Shown here piece by piece: positions 5,392 to 20,389 of a stretch of DNA of 64,000 nt. Source of the stretch: a virus; the IMG/VR virus record IMGVR_UViG_3300042451_000817, positions 1-64,000 of that record. The stretch is one strand, 5' to 3'. The number at the start of each line of letters is the position of its first letter. Position 1 is the first letter of the stretch. The position numbers and the translations under genes are program-made. The notes under the pieces were generated by a model. That model saw nothing but the letters and a program-made list of their open reading frames with translations. It had not been told where the DNA came from and did not search any database.

Positions 5392-5423
5392 TTCTTTGAT
5401 ACGTTTGTTTTGAGAAAAAATTT

Positions 5424-5448
5424 AAGGGAGTTTTTAACTCCCTTTTTT
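5424..5448 (+). terminator. Rho-independent terminator after the 49-aa gene
   Basis: A 9-bp stem (AAGGGAGTT/AACTCCCTT) with a 3-nt loop is followed by T-rich sequence. It closes the plus-strand GIY-YIG/49-aa pair. Confidence 0.8.
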
Positions 5449-5483
5449 ATTTATATTTTAAATTAAAATCGTTATAGTTTGTT

Positions 5484-6296
5484 ATGAAATATATTAATCC
5501 AAAAAGTATAAGAGGTTTGGTAAACAGATTTGCCGACTTTATTGTTAGTGAATTATCAAAGGACAACAATTTTGTAAGTATAATAAACGTAACATATTTA
5601 GATTCTTTTTTTGTTATTAATGGGATAACCGAATCTGATAAAGTATTAAATATTAACCCTATTAAAGAAAAGTTTTTTGAACTAAATAAAAACACGTTAA
5701 ATGGTTTAGGAATTAAACAAACAAATACTATTGATGTTATCAAATATAATAAAAAACCTGATGTTCCAACAACACATTTTTTTGAATTCTATAATTCAGA
5801 TAGAGTTTTATTTAAAAAAGAAACAATTAATCTAATAAAACATCTTGACTCCGAATACGAATCAATTAATTACTTTAATGAGTTTATTGTTGAGTCTAAT
5901 AAATTTATAACTAATCATTTCACAATTATACCTGAGATCGTATTCACTTCTGAATATCCGTATGGTTATAGTGTAAATTCAAATAGGTCCCACCTATATT
6001 ATTGTGAATATATTTGTAATCATTTATTTAAAACTATTAATATGGAGTATGTTAATTTCAAATTCTCAACTTTAAAAGATGAGAAAACAAATGACCAGTT
6101 AATTTCAATTAAGACTGATTCAATATATGTTGATGATTATATTAAATCTTTAATACTTGATGTGTTCGATTTTAATATTGATAAATTTGTATTAGATAAT
6201 TTATCAGGTTATGATGTTAAAAATGAAATTGATTCTCAATTAGAGAAAAAACCTTGGAATAAGGTTGATAGAATGAATGATATGGTAATATTTTAA
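5484..6296 (+). CDS. Hypothetical 270-aa protein
   Basis: No family is recognised. The protein is globular and alternates beta strands and helices (FFVINGITESDKVLNI, NPIKEKFFELNKNTLNGLG). It has a Tyr-rich central block (SEYPYGYSVNSNRSHLYYCEY) and an acidic-basic C-terminus. No signal peptide or membrane segment is visible. It is transcribed after a terminator and converges on the glutaredoxin gene, with a hairpin at the junction. Confidence 0.6.
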   Translation: MKYINPKSIRGLVNRFADFIVSELSKDNNFVSIINVTYLDSFFVINGITESDKVLNINPIKEKFFELNKNTLNGLGIKQTNTIDVIKYNKKPDVPTTHFFEFYNSDRVLFKKETINLIKHLDSEYESINYFNEFIVESNKFITNHFTIIPEIVFTSEYPYGYSVNSNRSHLYYCEYICNHLFKTINMEYVNFKFSTLKDEKTNDQLISIKTDSIYVDDYIKSLILDVFDFNIDKFVLDNLSGYDVKNEIDSQLEKKPWNKVDRMNDMVIF

Positions 6297-8889: not shown

Positions 8890-8915
8890 ATATGGCGAGA
8901 GTTACCTCGCCATAT
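8890..8915 (-). terminator. Rho-independent terminator after the DUF932 gene
   Basis: A 10-bp stem (ATATGGCGAG/CTCGCCATAT) with a 6-nt loop lies between the DUF932 stop (8925) and the next gene start (8878). It is followed on the minus strand by an AT-rich ATTTTAAATTT stretch. Confidence 0.7.
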
Positions 8916-10054: not shown

Positions 10055-11434
10055 TTATAATACTGAATAAAATCCCGCTCCGTTGTCTTCTAAAATATCT
10101 TTTAAACTTTCAGGTATTTTAACATTAGGATTAGAATTTTTCAAATTAAGCATTGTCAAATTTTTAAGATTTTTAATTGACTCAGGTATTGATTCTAAAT
10201 CTTTATTATCAGGTAAAGATATAAACGCTAAGTTAGGTAAGTTACCAATAGATTCAGGTACGGTTTTAACCATATTCTGTAATAATATTGTGTGTAAATC
10301 TTTAAATTGAGATATCTCATCAGGAACATCTAACGCAACGTCTTCTTTACTTTTATTAATAATATTTAAAGTTTTAATATCTTTAGGTAAAGATTTGAAT
10401 AAATCTTCAAATCCGTATAACGCTACGAATTTACCTGCGGAACTTTCAGGGTAAATAATTTCCACCTTTGTTCCACCTTTAGTTGTTAATCCTTTAGCGA
10501 ATTCGTGTTTGAATAAAGGTTTTAATTCAGGCGCCTTTTTATTTAAGAACTCAACTAAATTAATTTGGTGGTCATCTCTATCCATAAATTGAGCATCTTG
10601 GAAATGGAATTGATACCTTTCTTTAGGTAATCCTGTTCTTTCTCCAACCTCACCTTTATCATCATTAGGAAATACAACGTATAGTGGACCTTTTGCAATA
10701 TATCTGTCAAACCAATTTAAACCTGGAGATGAAGTACACCATTCGGTTTCACCTTTTCTATGGTCTTTATATCCGCCATACCAAATTGCAGCATCTTTAC
10801 CAGCAGGTCCTGGGTCACTAATCTTAATTAATGTCCAATCTGTACCTTGATAAAGAATTTCAGAACCTTTGTGTGAGAATCCTTCCCTAGACTTTTTAGC
10901 CTCTTTCTTTTCAGTTTCTATTCTTTTCTTTTCAGGTAATTGGAAATTAGAAAAAATATCAAATAAATCGGCAATTGATAGTTTACCAATATCTCTTTTT
11001 TCTAATGGAAGGTATTGTTTAGCTTTAGTATAAAACTCTAATCTTTCAGTTTGTTTATATAAATCTTCTAAGAATAATCTTTCAAATTCTTTTCTTGCCG
11101 TTTTATATTGTGGTGATTTAGGGTCTAAGGTATTTAAAGGATGTTCGGCGTCTAAAACGGGTTTAACAAAGTTTTTTAATAACCATTGGGTATAGTTACC
11201 TACTTTAACTTTTCCCATATCTTCAACACTAGCCCCTTCAATGTCAAAATTTTCAGGCGCCTTTGACGTTGGGTCAGCCATTATAATTCGTTTTAGGATA
11301 TCAAAATCCATTAATCCTTTGGTGGGTTTACCTCCTTCGGTTTTTTTCTCAGGAGCTTTAACCATTTTGTCGTATAAAACTTGGAATCTAGAATTCTCAA
11401 CTATTAGTTTTGATAATAAAGATGTAATTTTCAT
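10055..11434 (-). CDS. Hypothetical 459-aa protein with C-terminal leucine-rich repeats
   Basis: Residues 1-150 are helical (MKITSLLSKLIVENSRFQVL). The middle contains a compact domain with WYGGYKDHRKGETEWCTSSP and YIAKGPLYVVFPNDD, a Trp-Cys-Thr motif pattern recurrent in uncharacterised proteins of large phages. The last 110 residues are leucine-rich repeats: VPDEISQFKDLHTILLQ, VPESIGNLPNLAFISLPD and IPESIKNLKNLTMLNLK. LRRs normally mediate protein binding. There is no signal peptide, so it acts in the host cytoplasm or in the virion. It could be an injected or host-takeover factor, but this is not shown. Confidence 0.65.
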   Translation of the reverse strand: MKITSLLSKLIVENSRFQVLYDKMVKAPEKKTEGGKPTKGLMDFDILKRIIMADPTSKAPENFDIEGASVEDMGKVKVGNYTQWLLKNFVKPVLDAEHPLNTLDPKSPQYKTARKEFERLFLEDLYKQTERLEFYTKAKQYLPLEKRDIGKLSIADLFDIFSNFQLPEKKRIETEKKEAKKSREGFSHKGSEILYQGTDWTLIKISDPGPAGKDAAIWYGGYKDHRKGETEWCTSSPGLNWFDRYIAKGPLYVVFPNDDKGEVGERTGLPKERYQFHFQDAQFMDRDDHQINLVEFLNKKAPELKPLFKHEFAKGLTTKGGTKVEIIYPESSAGKFVALYGFEDLFKSLPKDIKTLNIINKSKEDVALDVPDEISQFKDLHTILLQNMVKTVPESIGNLPNLAFISLPDNKDLESIPESIKNLKNLTMLNLKNSNPNVKIPESLKDILEDNGAGFYSVL

Positions 11435-11517: not shown

Positions 11518-12354
11518 TTAATTCATTATTAGTAATTCCGTTCCAACATTTTGTGTTTTACCTTTTTTGGCTGCGGCGGCCTTTGCGAAATCTTTACTTA
11601 CCCATCTATATTCTGTTTTGGGAAACCATTCAGATAATAAAGGAAAATCGTAGTACGACATATTAAATTTACCTTTAATATTTTTTAAAACATTTGCCAA
11701 TCTTTCGTGGTCATCCCTATCAAAATCGTGTTTAGAATAATAATTTTCAGTTTTCCAATATGGTGCGTCAATATAATGAAAAGTATTTACCCCATCGTAC
11801 TTTTTAATAACATCTTCAAAATCTAAATTTTCAACATCTGTTATTTTTGTGAAATGTTCTATCCAATCAGGTTTTAGTAATTTATCCCTAAATGTTAAAT
11901 ATTTAGATTTATATTTCCCTTTTAAATCAATAAAAGAAGATTTTTCGGGTTTAGACCCACTAAAAACTTGAGTAACCACATATACGTATTTTGCAGCGGT
12001 TTCATAATCGTACTCACCTATTATAAAATTTTCGTTAAAAATTTCTCTTTGGAATCTCTCAAATTGTTCTTTATAAATTTCAGGGGTTTTTTCGACCCCT
12101 TGTTTTTGACAATCAATTGAATTTATTGCCTTTAACATATTAGATGGGTTTTGAACACATTTAAATAAGTTATAATTCAATCGATTAAAATCGTTGTAAA
12201 CTATTTTTTTGAGATTTGGGTAGTCTTTTAAGTCCATATTAAAATAACACCACATCATCCCTCCAAAAGACTCTAAATAAATTTCCATATCTTTAGGGTA
12301 ATATTCAACTATCCACTTACCAATTTTTGATTTTCCACCGATCCAACTCAACAT
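11518..12354 (-). CDS. D12-class DNA adenine methyltransferase with DAPY motif
   Basis: The 278-aa protein has the D12 order: SWIGGKSKIGKWIVEYYP near residues 3-20, YLESFGGMMWCYFNMD near 26-41, the VYNDFNRLNYNLF block near 52-64, and motif IV as YIDAPYWKTE with DAPY at 196-199 instead of DPPY. The first motif's WIGGK form also differs from the first D12 enzyme. It would methylate adenine N6, but the Pro-to-Ala change at the catalytic motif makes activity uncertain. It lies 6 bp downstream of a LAGLIDADG endonuclease gene. Confidence 0.8.
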   Translation of the reverse strand: MLSWIGGKSKIGKWIVEYYPKDMEIYLESFGGMMWCYFNMDLKDYPNLKKIVYNDFNRLNYNLFKCVQNPSNMLKAINSIDCQKQGVEKTPEIYKEQFERFQREIFNENFIIGEYDYETAAKYVYVVTQVFSGSKPEKSSFIDLKGKYKSKYLTFRDKLLKPDWIEHFTKITDVENLDFEDVIKKYDGVNTFHYIDAPYWKTENYYSKHDFDRDDHERLANVLKNIKGKFNMSYYDFPLLSEWFPKTEYRWVSKDFAKAAAAKKGKTQNVGTELLIMN

Positions 12355-12360
12355 AACGTA

Positions 12361-13134
12361 TTAAAATTTAAAATTATATTCCGATTCCGGATTTCTAGGG
12401 TATTTATCGAGTTTGTTAAACGATAAATAACTTTTATATTGATTAAATGTAGTTATATTTTTTTCAACAATCAACTTTAAAAACTCATCTTTACTCACAA
12501 AATCTTTGATCATTCCGTCAAATATTAGTTTTTTTCTTTCTAAACATAGAATTTTATCGTTATTGTTGTATAACAATTCCTTAAATTTAAATAAATCACT
12601 TAAATTACCAATGGTTATACTATATATTTTACCCATTTTATAAAATCCAATGTTAGTTAGACCTTGTGTTTTTAAAAATTCGTAAACACCCGATATAAAA
12701 TTATAATTACCAACAATAGTTCCGTTATACCCGGCAGAGTCTTTCCTCTTTGAAATAGACCCATCACCATCAAAATATCCTCTTATAAAGTGAGTTATTA
12801 AATTTGATGGTAAATCGGGTAAAGTTATTTTAAAAGTCTTATTATTAACACATCCCAACTCAAAAAGTCGTTTAACAACTTTACTTGAATTTATTGATGT
12901 TTGACAAAAATAAGATTTATTGTCTAACCCACATTTAATAGGGTGGTCACTTTCCATATGTTTTAGTAGTTTTTTAATATGGTCAACATCTGTATTTTTT
13001 AATTTCAACTTTAATTCACCGCTTTTACCATCTTTCATTCTAACATACCCATCAGCGTATAGAAACCCTAACCAATATGATGACTCTTCATTTAATATAT
13101 CAAAATAATTTTCATTAACTTTGTACTTTCTCAT
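12361..13134 (-). CDS. LAGLIDADG homing endonuclease
   Basis: The 257-aa protein has two LAGLIDADG helices: YWLGFLYADGY near residues 20-30 and FIRGYFDGDGSIS near 116-128. Both end in the acidic residue that binds metal. This gives a monomeric pseudo-symmetric enzyme with beta segments between them (GELKLKLKNTDVDHIKKL, FKITLPDLP). There are no intein splice motifs, so it is free-standing. Its start overlaps the stop of the ribbon-helix-helix gene by 20 nt, so expression is probably coupled. Insertion next to the D12 gene suggests that gene or its neighbourhood is the homing target. Confidence 0.87.
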   Translation of the reverse strand: MRKYKVNENYFDILNEESSYWLGFLYADGYVRMKDGKSGELKLKLKNTDVDHIKKLLKHMESDHPIKCGLDNKSYFCQTSINSSKVVKRLFELGCVNNKTFKITLPDLPSNLITHFIRGYFDGDGSISKRKDSAGYNGTIVGNYNFISGVYEFLKTQGLTNIGFYKMGKIYSITIGNLSDLFKFKELLYNNNDKILCLERKKLIFDGMIKDFVSKDEFLKLIVEKNITTFNQYKSYLSFNKLDKYPRNPESEYNFKF

Positions 13135-13279
13135 AATACTCTTTCACTAAATTCTGAACAAACTTGGACACACTAATATCCTCATTTTTCATTTTATCGA
13201 AAAGATATCGGTCAATACTAATACCATATTTAACCTTTTTATCTTTTTCATCTTTTTTAGGTCTTCCTGATTTTTTCAT
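13115..13279 (-). CDS. Small ribbon-helix-helix DNA-binding protein
   Basis: A 54-aa frame runs from ATG at 13279 to TAA at 13115. After a basic arm (MKKSGRPKKDEKDKK) the sequence VKYGISIDRYLFDKM, then DISVSKFVQNLVKEYYEK, fits the Arc/CopG ribbon-helix-helix fold: a beta strand, helix A, a turn with a Ser-Lys pair, and helix B. Such proteins dimerise and bind short palindromic operators, often repressing their own operon. It overlaps the LAGLIDADG gene by 20 nt, and a GTGATA-N6-TATCAC inverted repeat lies 35 bp upstream. It is probably the regulator of this homing module and the divergent gene. Fold assignment is by eye. Confidence 0.68.
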   Translation of the reverse strand: MKKSGRPKKDEKDKKVKYGISIDRYLFDKMKNEDISVSKFVQNLVKEYYEKVQS

Positions 13280-13313
13280 ATTATATAAATATACTAAAAT
13301 ATAAGAAAAGTGC

Positions 13314-13331
13314 GTGATAAATCAATATCAC
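13314..13331. promoter_or_regulatory. Inverted repeat, candidate operator
   Basis: GTGATA (13314-13319) and TATCAC (13326-13331) form a perfect 6-bp inverted repeat around a 6-nt spacer. It lies in the divergent gap between the ribbon-helix-helix gene and the small membrane-protein gene, and abuts a TTGACA box at 13333. Confidence 0.45.
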
Positions 13332-13332
13332 T

Positions 13333-13361
13333 TTGACATATTTTTAATTTTTAATTATAAT
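13333..13361 (+). promoter_or_regulatory. TTGACA-N17-TATAAT promoter candidate
   Basis: TTGACA (13333-13338) and TATAAT (13356-13361) match the general sigma-70 consensus exactly with a 17-nt spacer, 14 nt before the ATG at 13376. The -35 box also contains TTTG 20 nt before the TATAAT, the spacing seen in the Bacteroidota-type sites elsewhere in the window. Confidence 0.55.
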
Positions 13362-13375
13362 TAAACAAAAAACCT

Positions 13376-13510
13376 ATGGAAAATAAAAATTGTAAAAAAT
13401 GTAATAACACAGGATTAAAACTTCGTCATTGGTTGGTTGTAATCCTATCTTTCTATCTTTTGTTTGCATCGATATATGGAACAATTAAATTATTTAAGGA
13501 GTTCTTCTGA
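13376..13510 (+). CDS. 44-aa membrane protein with CxxC
   Basis: The frame runs from ATG at 13376 to TGA at 13510. The product starts MENKNCKKCNNTGLKL, where CKKCNNTG resembles half of a DnaJ-type zinc motif. It then has one transmembrane helix (WLVVILSFYLLFASIYG) and a short charged tail. Its 3' end overlaps the convergent DnaJ gene by 17 nt. A near-perfect promoter and candidate operator lie directly upstream, which is the best support for it. Function unknown. Confidence 0.55.
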   Translation: MENKNCKKCNNTGLKLRHWLVVILSFYLLFASIYGTIKLFKEFF

Positions 13511-14429
13511 ACTTAACGTATAATCTAATAAACAAATCACCAAACCCATTATTTTTAAAACCTTTAGATTTAACTCTTAAAGGTTTTGAACTATCGAAAT
13601 CTACCGGTAATTTAATTAACAAATTACCATCTGGATGTGGTATAGTTACATTCTCTTTTTTTAAATCATCTAAATTTAAAAAACAATTATATATTAAATC
13701 ATTACCTTCTTTTTCAAAATTAGACTCCGAATAAAGGTTAAATTTTACAACTAAATTACCATAAAATCCTTTTATAAAATCCCCTTTACCATTTAACCTA
13801 AACATCTGTCCATTATCAATCCCGTGAGGAATTTTTATTTTAACGGTTTCCATATTAGTCTTAGTACTTTCTCCGTTGCAAGAATAACATTTTGTTTTAA
13901 ATTTAAATCCTTCACCTCTACAATCGTTACACGCGTGTCTTACAACCTGAGTGAAAAATCCTCCACCCATTCTTCTTTCAAAAAATCCATTACCTCCACA
14001 GGTAACACAAATATCTTTTTCACCACCATTTCCGTTGCAACTATCACAAGATGTTTTTCTACTAAATGTAATTTCTTTATCCGCAGATATATAAGATTCA
14101 ACAACCCCAATGTTAACCTCAATTATTTTATCAGGAACCACATTTCTTCTTTGCCCTCCAAAATGTTGATTAAAAAAATCTTCAAATGGATTACCGAATC
14201 CGCCGCCTTGGTTATTATGAAATGGATTATTTTTTCTATTATCATAATCTCTACGTTTATTCTCATCTCCAATATTTTCATAAGCCTCGGTTATTTTTTT
14301 GAAATATTCTTCAGACCCTCCCTTATCAGGATGATGTTCTATAGCCTTTTTTCTATACGCTTTTTTTATCTCATCTTGACTTGCGTTTTCCGAAACTCCA
14401 AGTATTTCATAAAAATTTTCAGTTCCCAT
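13494..14429 (-). CDS. dnaJ: DnaJ-family co-chaperone
   Basis: The 311-aa protein has a J domain (residues 5-65) with the essential HPD at 33-35 in EHHPDKGG. A Gly/Asn/Phe-rich linker (NNPFHNNQGGGFGNPF) follows. Then comes a zinc-binding domain with four cysteine clusters: CDSCNGNG, CVTCGGNG, CNDCRGEG and CYSCNGES. The C-terminal substrate-binding region is somewhat shorter than in bacterial DnaJ. It would stimulate host DnaK and could help fold the large virion proteins. Phage-encoded full-architecture DnaJ proteins are unusual but known in large phages. It is the first gene of its unit, facing a divergent gene 33 bp away. Confidence 0.92.
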   Translation of the reverse strand: MGTENFYEILGVSENASQDEIKKAYRKKAIEHHPDKGGSEEYFKKITEAYENIGDENKRRDYDNRKNNPFHNNQGGGFGNPFEDFFNQHFGGQRRNVVPDKIIEVNIGVVESYISADKEITFSRKTSCDSCNGNGGEKDICVTCGGNGFFERRMGGGFFTQVVRHACNDCRGEGFKFKTKCYSCNGESTKTNMETVKIKIPHGIDNGQMFRLNGKGDFIKGFYGNLVVKFNLYSESNFEKEGNDLIYNCFLNLDDLKKENVTIPHPDGNLLIKLPVDFDSSKPLRVKSKGFKNNGFGDLFIRLYVKFRRTP

Positions 14430-18486: not shown

Positions 18487-19743
18487 TTATTTTTTATAAA
18501 TGGTTTTATTTATTTTTGAGATTAGGATTTTCTTTATTAAATTTTCACTAATTTGTTTTTCTTTACTTATCTTTGAAATGACTTCTTTAAGTTTTTCATT
18601 TTCAAAAATTTTAAGAGCCTTTATATCTCCTTGATTACAATAAGGGAATTTTTTACACTTTTCCTTCACTTTAACAAACTTTCCTCCCGGTATTTGTTTT
18701 CTATTCTTAACATTCTCTTCAACCTCTTCTTTACCTCTATTTAATTCTTTTTGTTTGTCTTTTATTTTATTTTCAATCTTTTCTTTTAATTTTTTTGATA
18801 TGTACCCATCAAATTTTTTCTGAAATAATTCCCAAAAATTAATCATAGTTTTAACTTGGGTTAATTTATTTACGCTTTCTATGACATCAATAAGTTTTAA
18901 ATATTCACTATCCCTTAAATTATATATTTCATCTTCTGTCATATCATTCATATCTTTTTTTGTATTTTCAGATACAAATTTCCCTCCCGGTAATAAAGTT
19001 TTTTTATGTGTTTTACCAGATCCCTTTGGGTGGTTTCCTCTCATTTGAACGTCTTCAAATCCGGGAGCATCATACATTCCGACTGAAGAGGACGATGTTA
19101 CTTCTTTAGTCTCAATTTTTTTCAATTTAGTATAATAGTTCGGGTCTTCGTATAAATGATCCATAGCAATTTCTTTAGCATTTTGCTTGTTATCGGTATG
19201 TTCCATCTCAACTTTAATTCCTTTATTAAGTTCTTTTTTAAGGGTATCAATCATATTGTTAATATGATAATAACCCTTTTTATCGTGTTTTTTTGCAATA
19301 TCTTTAAGAGTCATTTCATCAGATTTACCTCCCTTTAATTTTTCCTCAGAAACATTTTTTTTCTTCCCTTGACAATGGGCTCTTTGTGAAAAACCTTTTG
19401 GGTTATTACAATCAATACTATCCTTATATTTTTTAGACCACTTTTCTTCCATTTCTTTCTTAGTTTCTGAAAATAAAGGTTCACTATAACCACCAGCACT
19501 TACCGCACCCATAGATTCTTTAGATTCTAATTTGTCCGCGGAAAATAATTTTCCAATAGGTAACTTCATTTTTTTATTTTTAATCATTTTTTCTTCTTCA
19601 GATAGTCCTTTAACCATATCACTTGTTGCATTTAATAATTCAACACCAGGATCTGGAGGTAATTCAGTTTTACCAATATTATTAAGTATTTGACCTTTTA
19701 AATCGGTCATCATATCTTCTTTAGTTTCTTTTTTATTTTTCAT
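18487..19743 (-). CDS. Hypothetical 418-aa basic, low-complexity protein
   Basis: No family is assigned. The sequence is Lys/Glu-rich and mostly disordered or coiled. It has two similar short motifs, HKKTLLPGGKFVSENTK and RKQIPGGKFVKVKEK, each with PGGKFV. A CNNPKGFSQRAHCQGKKK segment resembles a conserved Cys-containing motif in structural or head-associated proteins of T4-like environmental phages. It shares the charged, low-complexity style of the downstream 554-aa protein, so the two may work together. Its start overlaps the secreted nuclease gene by 11 nt. Confidence 0.55.
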   Translation of the reverse strand: MKNKKETKEDMMTDLKGQILNNIGKTELPPDPGVELLNATSDMVKGLSEEEKMIKNKKMKLPIGKLFSADKLESKESMGAVSAGGYSEPLFSETKKEMEEKWSKKYKDSIDCNNPKGFSQRAHCQGKKKNVSEEKLKGGKSDEMTLKDIAKKHDKKGYYHINNMIDTLKKELNKGIKVEMEHTDNKQNAKEIAMDHLYEDPNYYTKLKKIETKEVTSSSSVGMYDAPGFEDVQMRGNHPKGSGKTHKKTLLPGGKFVSENTKKDMNDMTEDEIYNLRDSEYLKLIDVIESVNKLTQVKTMINFWELFQKKFDGYISKKLKEKIENKIKDKQKELNRGKEEVEENVKNRKQIPGGKFVKVKEKCKKFPYCNQGDIKALKIFENEKLKEVISKISKEKQISENLIKKILISKINKTIYKK

Positions 19744-20389
19744 TTTTTAAATTAAAAATTAATTCATTTTTATTAAGTTTTAATATTTCGTTTAATTCTT
19801 TAATAGAAACATTAATAATTTCCCCATTAATATTCGACCCAATCCAAACATAACTTATTTTTTTATTTTTTATAAAAATTATTTTGTAAAAAGAGATTGG
19901 TATTTTAATTTTACTTTTACCCAAAAATAATTTTTTATTATTATCATAAATAACCCCTGTAATAATTGTTACATCAGATTTGTATTTAGAAATAGAATCC
20001 TCTACCGATCTTTCTAATCTAGCCCATTTACCTCGATTAAATCCCGCCAATTGGGGCGCTTGATTATAAAAACTGAACGAATGATGATTAACCTTATTAT
20101 CGTAAGAAGTGATATGTGATGGAGTTAGATGACCTAAATCATATCCTGAGTATTCATAAGGTTTTTTTGTATATATTCCCTTAAACTCCGAATACCAATT
20201 ATCATCACGTTCTGAATCTAATTTTAAAAAATCTGCGAATTTTAATTCTTGTTTACTAATAAATGAATTATTGTCATAATCTAAATACAAATTTAAAACT
20301 TCGTTCTTAATTTGTGTTTTGGGTTCATTGAAGGTTATTTGACCGAAACCTAAAAAACTTAATAATAGAAATAAAAAGAATATTTTCAT
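19733..20389 (-). CDS. Secreted DNA/RNA non-specific endonuclease
   Basis: A signal peptide (MKIFFLFLLLSFLGFGQ) is followed by a beta-beta-alpha-metal nuclease domain. The catalytic region reads YDLGHLTPSHI with DLGH at residues 84-87, where DRGH is canonical. NQAPQLAGFNRGKWARLE supplies the conserved Asn and the Asn-x-Gly-x-Trp segment. The family cuts DNA and RNA without sequence preference using Mg. Export to the periplasm fits degradation of released host nucleic acid at lysis or defence against superinfecting DNA. It overlaps the spanin-like gene by 4 nt. The Arg-to-Leu change may lower activity. Confidence 0.83.
   Translation of the reverse strand: MKIFFLFLLLSFLGFGQITFNEPKTQIKNEVLNLYLDYDNNSFISKQELKFADFLKLDSERDDNWYSEFKGIYTKKPYEYSGYDLGHLTPSHITSYDNKVNHHSFSFYNQAPQLAGFNRGKWARLERSVEDSISKYKSDVTIITGVIYDNNKKLFLGKSKIKIPISFYKIIFIKNKKISYVWIGSNINGEIINVSIKELNEILKLNKNELIFNLKNEK

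Follow-up and report, generated by a model that had tools for sequence, protein, structure and literature searches.

A phage homing cassette with a replaceable nuclease and a probable ribbon-helix-helix autorepressor of its own

How free-standing homing genes settle in compact genomes without wrecking expression is known mostly from phage T4, case by case. A 64,000-nucleotide stretch (the window) of the 69,910-base virus record IMGVR_UViG_3300042451_000817 raises this question in a particular form, as a gene for a small protein resembling ribbon-helix-helix (RHH) regulators runs into the start of a LAGLIDADG homing endonuclease gene. What does such a protein do in front of a nuclease, and which of the surrounding sequences belong to it? 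A sequence-only reading had proposed a self-regulated mobile module in which RHH binding to a palindrome, beside a promoter for a divergent membrane-protein gene, could repress transcription in both directions.

The two overlapping ORFs exist as that reading described them. The RHH-like gene (13115-13279, minus strand; 54 aa), recognized from its ORF, its relatives and an AlphaFold model, is the first cistron, and overlaps by 20 nt the LAGLIDADG gene (12361-13134, minus strand; 257 aa), which starts in the +1 frame. A LAGLIDADG domain is present in the endonuclease (LAGLIDADG_3, E = 1e-8, 35.7 bits against a cut-off of 22.5; PHROG 4645, 1.5e-41). Six nucleotides past the endonuclease stop lies a gene for a D12-class adenine methyltransferase (Dam-like, hereafter Dam; 11518-12354, minus strand; Pfam MethyltransfD12, 1.7e-19), which forms the right flank, and a resident DnaJ-like gene (13494-14429, minus strand; Pfam DnaJ, 1.4e-22) forms the left flank of the insertion site. 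Elsewhere in the window, by eye, an ORF starting at 1901 (minus strand) resembles another D12-type methyltransferase and a 218-aa ORF (19733-20389, minus strand) a secreted DNA/RNA non-specific endonuclease; a strong terminator-like hairpin at 8890-8915 is usable from either strand, and a 459-aa protein with weak leucine-rich-repeat matches (10055-11434, minus strand) resembles the product of a gene found after Dam in several relatives.

We collected relatives in uncultured phages by searching IMG/VR with the RHH protein (39 loci) and with an RHH profile (at least 147 relatives, 79 loci kept), and reduced all collected loci to 67 distinct leaders, each made up of an RHH ORF and the 60 nt upstream of it; where a decayed copy shares its leader with another locus, as L036 and L037 do with L035, it was not counted separately. 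A full-length nuclease follows 61 of the 67. By BLAST against six references from the same loci these fall into six kinds: zinc-ribbon HNH (25), LAGLIDADG type 2 (15), LAGLIDADG type 1 (11, plus one truncated), zinc-ribbon LAGLIDADG (4), HTH-LAGLIDADG (4) and a NUMOD3-type nuclease (2). Pfam backs LAGLIDADG_3, HNH and NUMOD3 in representatives (NUMOD3 in L206), and gave no match at 0.01 for the zinc-ribbon HNH proteins of L035 and L182. Five leaders have no nuclease or a short remnant only. L202 and L055 have no ATG-started overlapping nuclease, L055 having an HNH stretch adjoining the RHH gene, and the minus-strand entry of L046 is an additional RHH-like ORF that no nuclease follows. In that locus two diverged RHH-like ORFs, 5402-5584 (minus strand) and 5645-5842 (plus strand), are opposed, and the plus-strand one precedes an HTH-LAGLIDADG gene.

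The junction between the two genes is fixed. All 61 full-length nucleases begin within the RHH gene in the +1 frame, most commonly with a 20-nt overlap; since a start had to be ATG and to lie in one of the two frames not used by the RHH gene, the chance of this frame is one in two for each, and the relatives are not independent. What stands behind the junction changes repeatedly. On a tree of 37 Dam-site leaders, built from 135 columns with the nuclease overlap excluded and with 15 of its 34 inner branches open, nuclease kind changes 16 times, against a minimum of 4 and a mean of 18.8 for shuffled labels; the well-supported branches alone force at least four changes for LAGLIDADG-2, five for LAGLIDADG-1 and three for HNH. 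The near-identical RHH genes of L022, L030 and L032 (tree branches 0-0.011) illustrate the exchange: they carry LAGLIDADG-1, LAGLIDADG-2 and HNH nucleases, and the L022/L032 and L030/L032 pairs are 91-95% identical over about 330 bp, the similarity ending just past the nuclease start. In the 309-kb phage G006, which has four RHH copies, the three diverged copies are also followed by HNH nucleases. A conserved bicistronic RHH-nuclease anatomy is combined with nuclease swapping. We suggest that the locus is probably a homing cassette of a large phage, equipped with an RHH autorepressor and with a nuclease that can be replaced.

The RHH subfamily follows the insertion site. With neighbors assigned by tblastn, all 41 leaders whose RHH protein has the motif KYGISI adjoin Dam, as do none of the 26 others, most of which adjoin RecA/exonuclease or DNA polymerase genes. 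This linkage, perfect while the nuclease kind varies at both the Dam and the RecA/exonuclease sites, together with the fixed overlap and frame, could also mean that the RHH protein guides the nuclease to its DNA target, in trans or as a frameshift fusion, by recognizing the insertion site and bringing along whichever nuclease the second gene encodes. We consider this unlikely. The linkage is also expected if the leader merely resides at the site; no slippery site common to the inspected junctions was found by eye; and LAGLIDADG proteins have their target specificity built in. Related nucleases in annotated phages, moreover, occur without an annotated RHH neighbor: among eight regions around such nucleases that we compared, the annotated genes include none in Flavobacterium elemo phages, the crAss-like phages cr116_1 and cr125_1, Fpv1 or Pseudomonas phage JBD44. 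Three tblastn queries for the RHH gene in annotated phages gave no match at E up to 1. In the uncultured 642-kb huge phage LR756502 (L216), a 49-aa ORF that looks RHH-like by eye (1362-1511) overlaps an HNH gene (1498-2190) by 14 nt.

The autorepressor reading treats the RHH gene as part of what moves, and cassette-free alleles bear on this directly. We examined 84 Dam loci, made up of the best 80 of 495 relatives from a Dam scan plus the window, L056, L057 and L058; 21 are occupied by the cassette, 34 are empty, 26 hold something else and three are without DnaJ. In the empty alleles the gap between DnaJ and Dam is 220-277 bp and the RHH gene is absent too. Presence or absence thus varies at one intergenic site, and the cassette lies between whole genes, as would be expected of a free-standing homing cassette. 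The gap looks like an insertion hotspot. A gene of about 158-210 aa on the opposite strand takes the place of the cassette in 23 of the 26 "other" loci (among them L063, L072, L075, L079, L096, L117 and L128), and L057 has a gene of that type alongside the cassette. The same alleles make it very unlikely that the RHH gene simply belongs to the resident phage and that nucleases have inserted next to it by chance. That reading would account for cassettes in which RHH gene and leader are intact and the nuclease has decayed, but it fits poorly with 34 of 84 loci without nuclease and RHH gene alike, with relatives at other sites that are also followed by nucleases, and with a collection of bacterial and archaeal genomes in which none of 485 pattern matches proved to be this RHH protein.

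The boundaries of the insertion were drawn by comparison with L058, the only relative found in a DnaJ scan and the decisive one, an empty-site close relative whose DnaJ protein is 90% identical to that of the window. The two align at 86% up to about 13320 and then diverge. Sliding identity is 79-94% left of this junction, drops to 56-77% across most of Dam and returns to 84-100% past about 11600, so that the exchanged tract (11600-13320) comprises the cassette and most of Dam. Such a one-sided tract through Dam would be the expected trace of homing with a break in Dam. No donor of the tract was found among the collected loci, where the best Dam match is 79-81%, and for this reason the tract may instead reflect independent recombination of Dam.

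The RHH assignment itself rests on distant similarity. The window protein has no Pfam match and only weak Arc-like PHROG matches (E 0.03-0.04); its diverged relatives match CcdA and BrnA, which are RHH antitoxins, at best at 1.1e-5 (CcdA). A monomeric AlphaFold model (pLDDT 82) predicts two helices, at residues 24-32 and 37-53, following a segment of strand length, and among solved structures Arc, CopG and CdbA come closest, though they score poorly (Foldseek E above 1, VIA-align Z 2.0-2.7). The gene is under purifying selection: within the Dam-site clade its median dN/dS is about 0.07, compared with 0.15 for LAGLIDADG-2, and the synonymous sites of the RHH gene are close to saturation (median pS 0.71).

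These antitoxin matches, the overlap of a small regulator gene with a nuclease gene, and the retention of the RHH gene where the nuclease has decayed would also suit a toxin-antitoxin-like addiction pair, in which the RHH protein neutralizes the nuclease by direct contact. We regard this as highly improbable. The predicted second helix ends at residue 53 of 54, which would leave no tail for toxin binding, and one shared contact is unlikely with six unrelated nucleases behind one RHH family; a type II toxin-antitoxin pair has a cognate toxin of one fold, and here there are six nuclease kinds. Repression by the RHH protein of the cassette's own promoter is the likeliest role that these sequence comparisons suggest.

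Where, then, would an RHH autorepressor bind? The palindrome GTGATA-N6-TATCAC proposed as its operator is present at 13314-13331 as the only exact copy in the window (six matches with up to two mismatches, 3.7 expected), and TTGACA-N17-TATAAT likewise occurs exactly once, at 13333-13361 on the plus strand (three matches with up to one mismatch, 2.4 expected), in front of the resident gene for a 44-aa membrane-protein-like product (13376-13510, plus strand), which is next to DnaJ in empty alleles. The palindrome, however, spans the insertion junction near 13320: GTGATA lies on the cassette side and TATCAC on the resident side, where L058 has TATTAC. Because the alignment of the window with L058 runs through the promoter and the TATCAC half-site before it diverges, the promoter (TTGACT-N17-TATTAT in L058) and half of the palindrome are resident. 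The promoter-like site of the membrane-protein gene is conserved, here exactly consensus, and is no part of the cassette. Although the palindrome is exact, unique in the window and abuts both control regions, we give almost no credence to RHH binding there and repressing both directions, since it is a product of the junction and other RHH genes lack it in their upstream regions; we rejected it as operator, and two-way repression is at most an accident of the junction rather than a trait of the module. What stands of the proposed module is a mobile bicistronic RHH-endonuclease unit with its own upstream element; the palindrome, the promoter and the membrane-protein gene were wrongly included. 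The same reading expected homing homologs to share RHH gene and repeat: the close family has the RHH gene without the palindrome, and the distant homologs are without an annotated RHH neighbor.

The cassette's own upstream element is a better candidate. The leader (13280-13317, minus strand), a putative promoter region recognized by a leader matrix and by counts of ACGCACTTT, contains ACGCACTTTT (13306-13315, minus strand), a candidate RHH half-site or operator. With KYGISI in the protein as the mark of the Dam-site group, ACGCACTTT occurs upstream of 41/41 Dam-site RHH genes versus 0/26 others, and the shorter ACTTTT upstream of 40/41 and 23/26, respectively. The matrix gives the window leader a score of 32.9, against 12.2 for the second-best site in the window, and 118 of 135 strong matches precede an RHH gene, in collected loci that overlap, so that matches are not independent. 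We rejected the possibility that the ACGCACTTTT leader is a general phage promoter, as in the loci collected it stands almost only before RHH genes. With RHH synonymous sites near saturation and dN/dS as low as given above, the motif has been kept far beyond neutral expectation.

Half-sites also recur in pairs. The upstream-motif set comprised 54 of the 67 leaders (L025, L046, leaders shorter than 62 nt and near-duplicates were dropped), and the repeat tests used the 49 of these with the box at its usual distance, leaving out five. Allowing at least five of six matches, inverted AAAAGT-N12-ACTTTT occurs in 9/21 non-Dam leaders and AAAAGT-N3-ACTTTT in 7/21, and direct ACTTTT-N6-ACTTTT in 14/28 Dam-site leaders. 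The N12 and N6 counts were reached in none of 1000 row shuffles each, and, under joint column permutation, which keeps relatedness, in 23/1000 and 98/1000, respectively. These pairs are suggestive of RHH sites, unevenly so between clades. The conserved leader could instead be a promoter box.

The insertion has a consequence for the downstream gene. In many empty alleles a box like TATATTTG lies 4-5 nt upstream of Dam; it resembles the Bacteroidetes -7 consensus TAnnTTTG as given in the accessible part of one source (PMC7366714), and from it one may guess at a host among the Bacteroidota. We inspected 34 occupied alleles, 31 of them with an intact nuclease: in 31/31 the nuclease stop lies 1-23 nt before Dam, and by eye none retains a promoter-like box there. 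We infer that Dam would be transcribed from the cassette leader. The decayed-nuclease cassettes L001, L007 and L014, with RHH gene and leader intact, are consistent with Dam needing the leader.

The autorepression proposed for the cassette is reminiscent of the T4 intron endonuclease I-TevI, which represses its own promoter, according to the accessible part of PMC2988022. In both systems a DNA-binding protein would hold down expression of a homing endonuclease by acting on an operator within the promoter of that endonuclease, which for the cassette is our reading of the leader; I-TevI uses its own DNA-binding domain, whereas the cassette would use a separate RHH gene common to unrelated nucleases. 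The same excerpt describes the T4 seg and mob genes as free-standing, with promoters embedded in these genes and cleavage sites away from the insertion, and seven T4 homing genes as apparently promoter-less, with downstream promoters inside the endonuclease gene (PMC2988022). As far as that account goes, they and the cassette are alike intergenic, without intron and with the target (for the cassette, the probable target) in a neighboring gene, and displace the promoter of the downstream gene, favoring retention; unlike them, the cassette comes with a regulator and with a leader of its own that serves several nuclease kinds. NUMOD modules are a further case of one DNA-binding motif recurring with unrelated nuclease domains, but are part of the nuclease polypeptide, whereas the RHH protein is encoded by a separate, overlapping gene. 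Restriction-modification C proteins are small HTH regulators that time restriction enzyme versus methylase; their genes, like the cassette as read here, place a small regulator before an endonuclease gene, and the operator lies in the promoter that the two genes share, but C proteins differ in being of the HTH type and in serving a restriction-methylase pair. Rhizobium phage 16-3 p099/p100 (L218, 1293-1502 and 1456-2253) perhaps represents the same solution with another DNA-binding fold: a 69-aa regulator gene overlaps an HNH/endonuclease VII gene by 47 nt, and the regulator is of Xre-type HTH (Pfam HTH_31, 5.9e-6) instead of RHH. In the open PMC literature, a corpus without most subscription papers and bioRxiv preprints, we found no description of an RHH-led homing cassette; the accessible part of one paper treats RHH proteins and homing endonucleases separately (PMC8987985).

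We propose the following course for the autorepressed cassette. In cassette-free relatives the endonuclease probably cuts in Dam or close to it, and repair would copy the cassette, together with adjoining Dam sequence, into the site between the DnaJ/membrane-protein genes and Dam. By binding repeats of the ACTTTT half-site within the cassette promoter (ACGCACTTTT in the window), the RHH protein would most likely repress the operon and keep nuclease production brief or low. Dam, its own promoter-like element replaced, would become the third gene under the cassette promoter. The RHH leader stays with its insertion site, and unrelated nucleases replace one another behind it. A tentative generalization is that of a selfish element divided into a site-specific socket, the RHH gene and its matching operator, and an exchangeable nuclease plug at a fixed junction; the socket may take over the downstream gene, and may survive nuclease decay because that resident gene has come under its promoter. 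If this is true, different RHH-operator pairs at each site would allow several cassettes to coexist in one phage without cross-repression.

The RHH-led homing cassette is real and recurrent, and is an apparently undescribed variety of free-standing homing cassette with a dedicated RHH gene. Six nuclease kinds, at three or more sites, share this type of regulator gene and control region, and the cassettes offer a set of small putative RHH-operator pairs with varied site arrangements. It thereby becomes possible to test directly how the cost of selfish nucleases is controlled, how nuclease modules are exchanged and how a promoter captures a neighboring gene.
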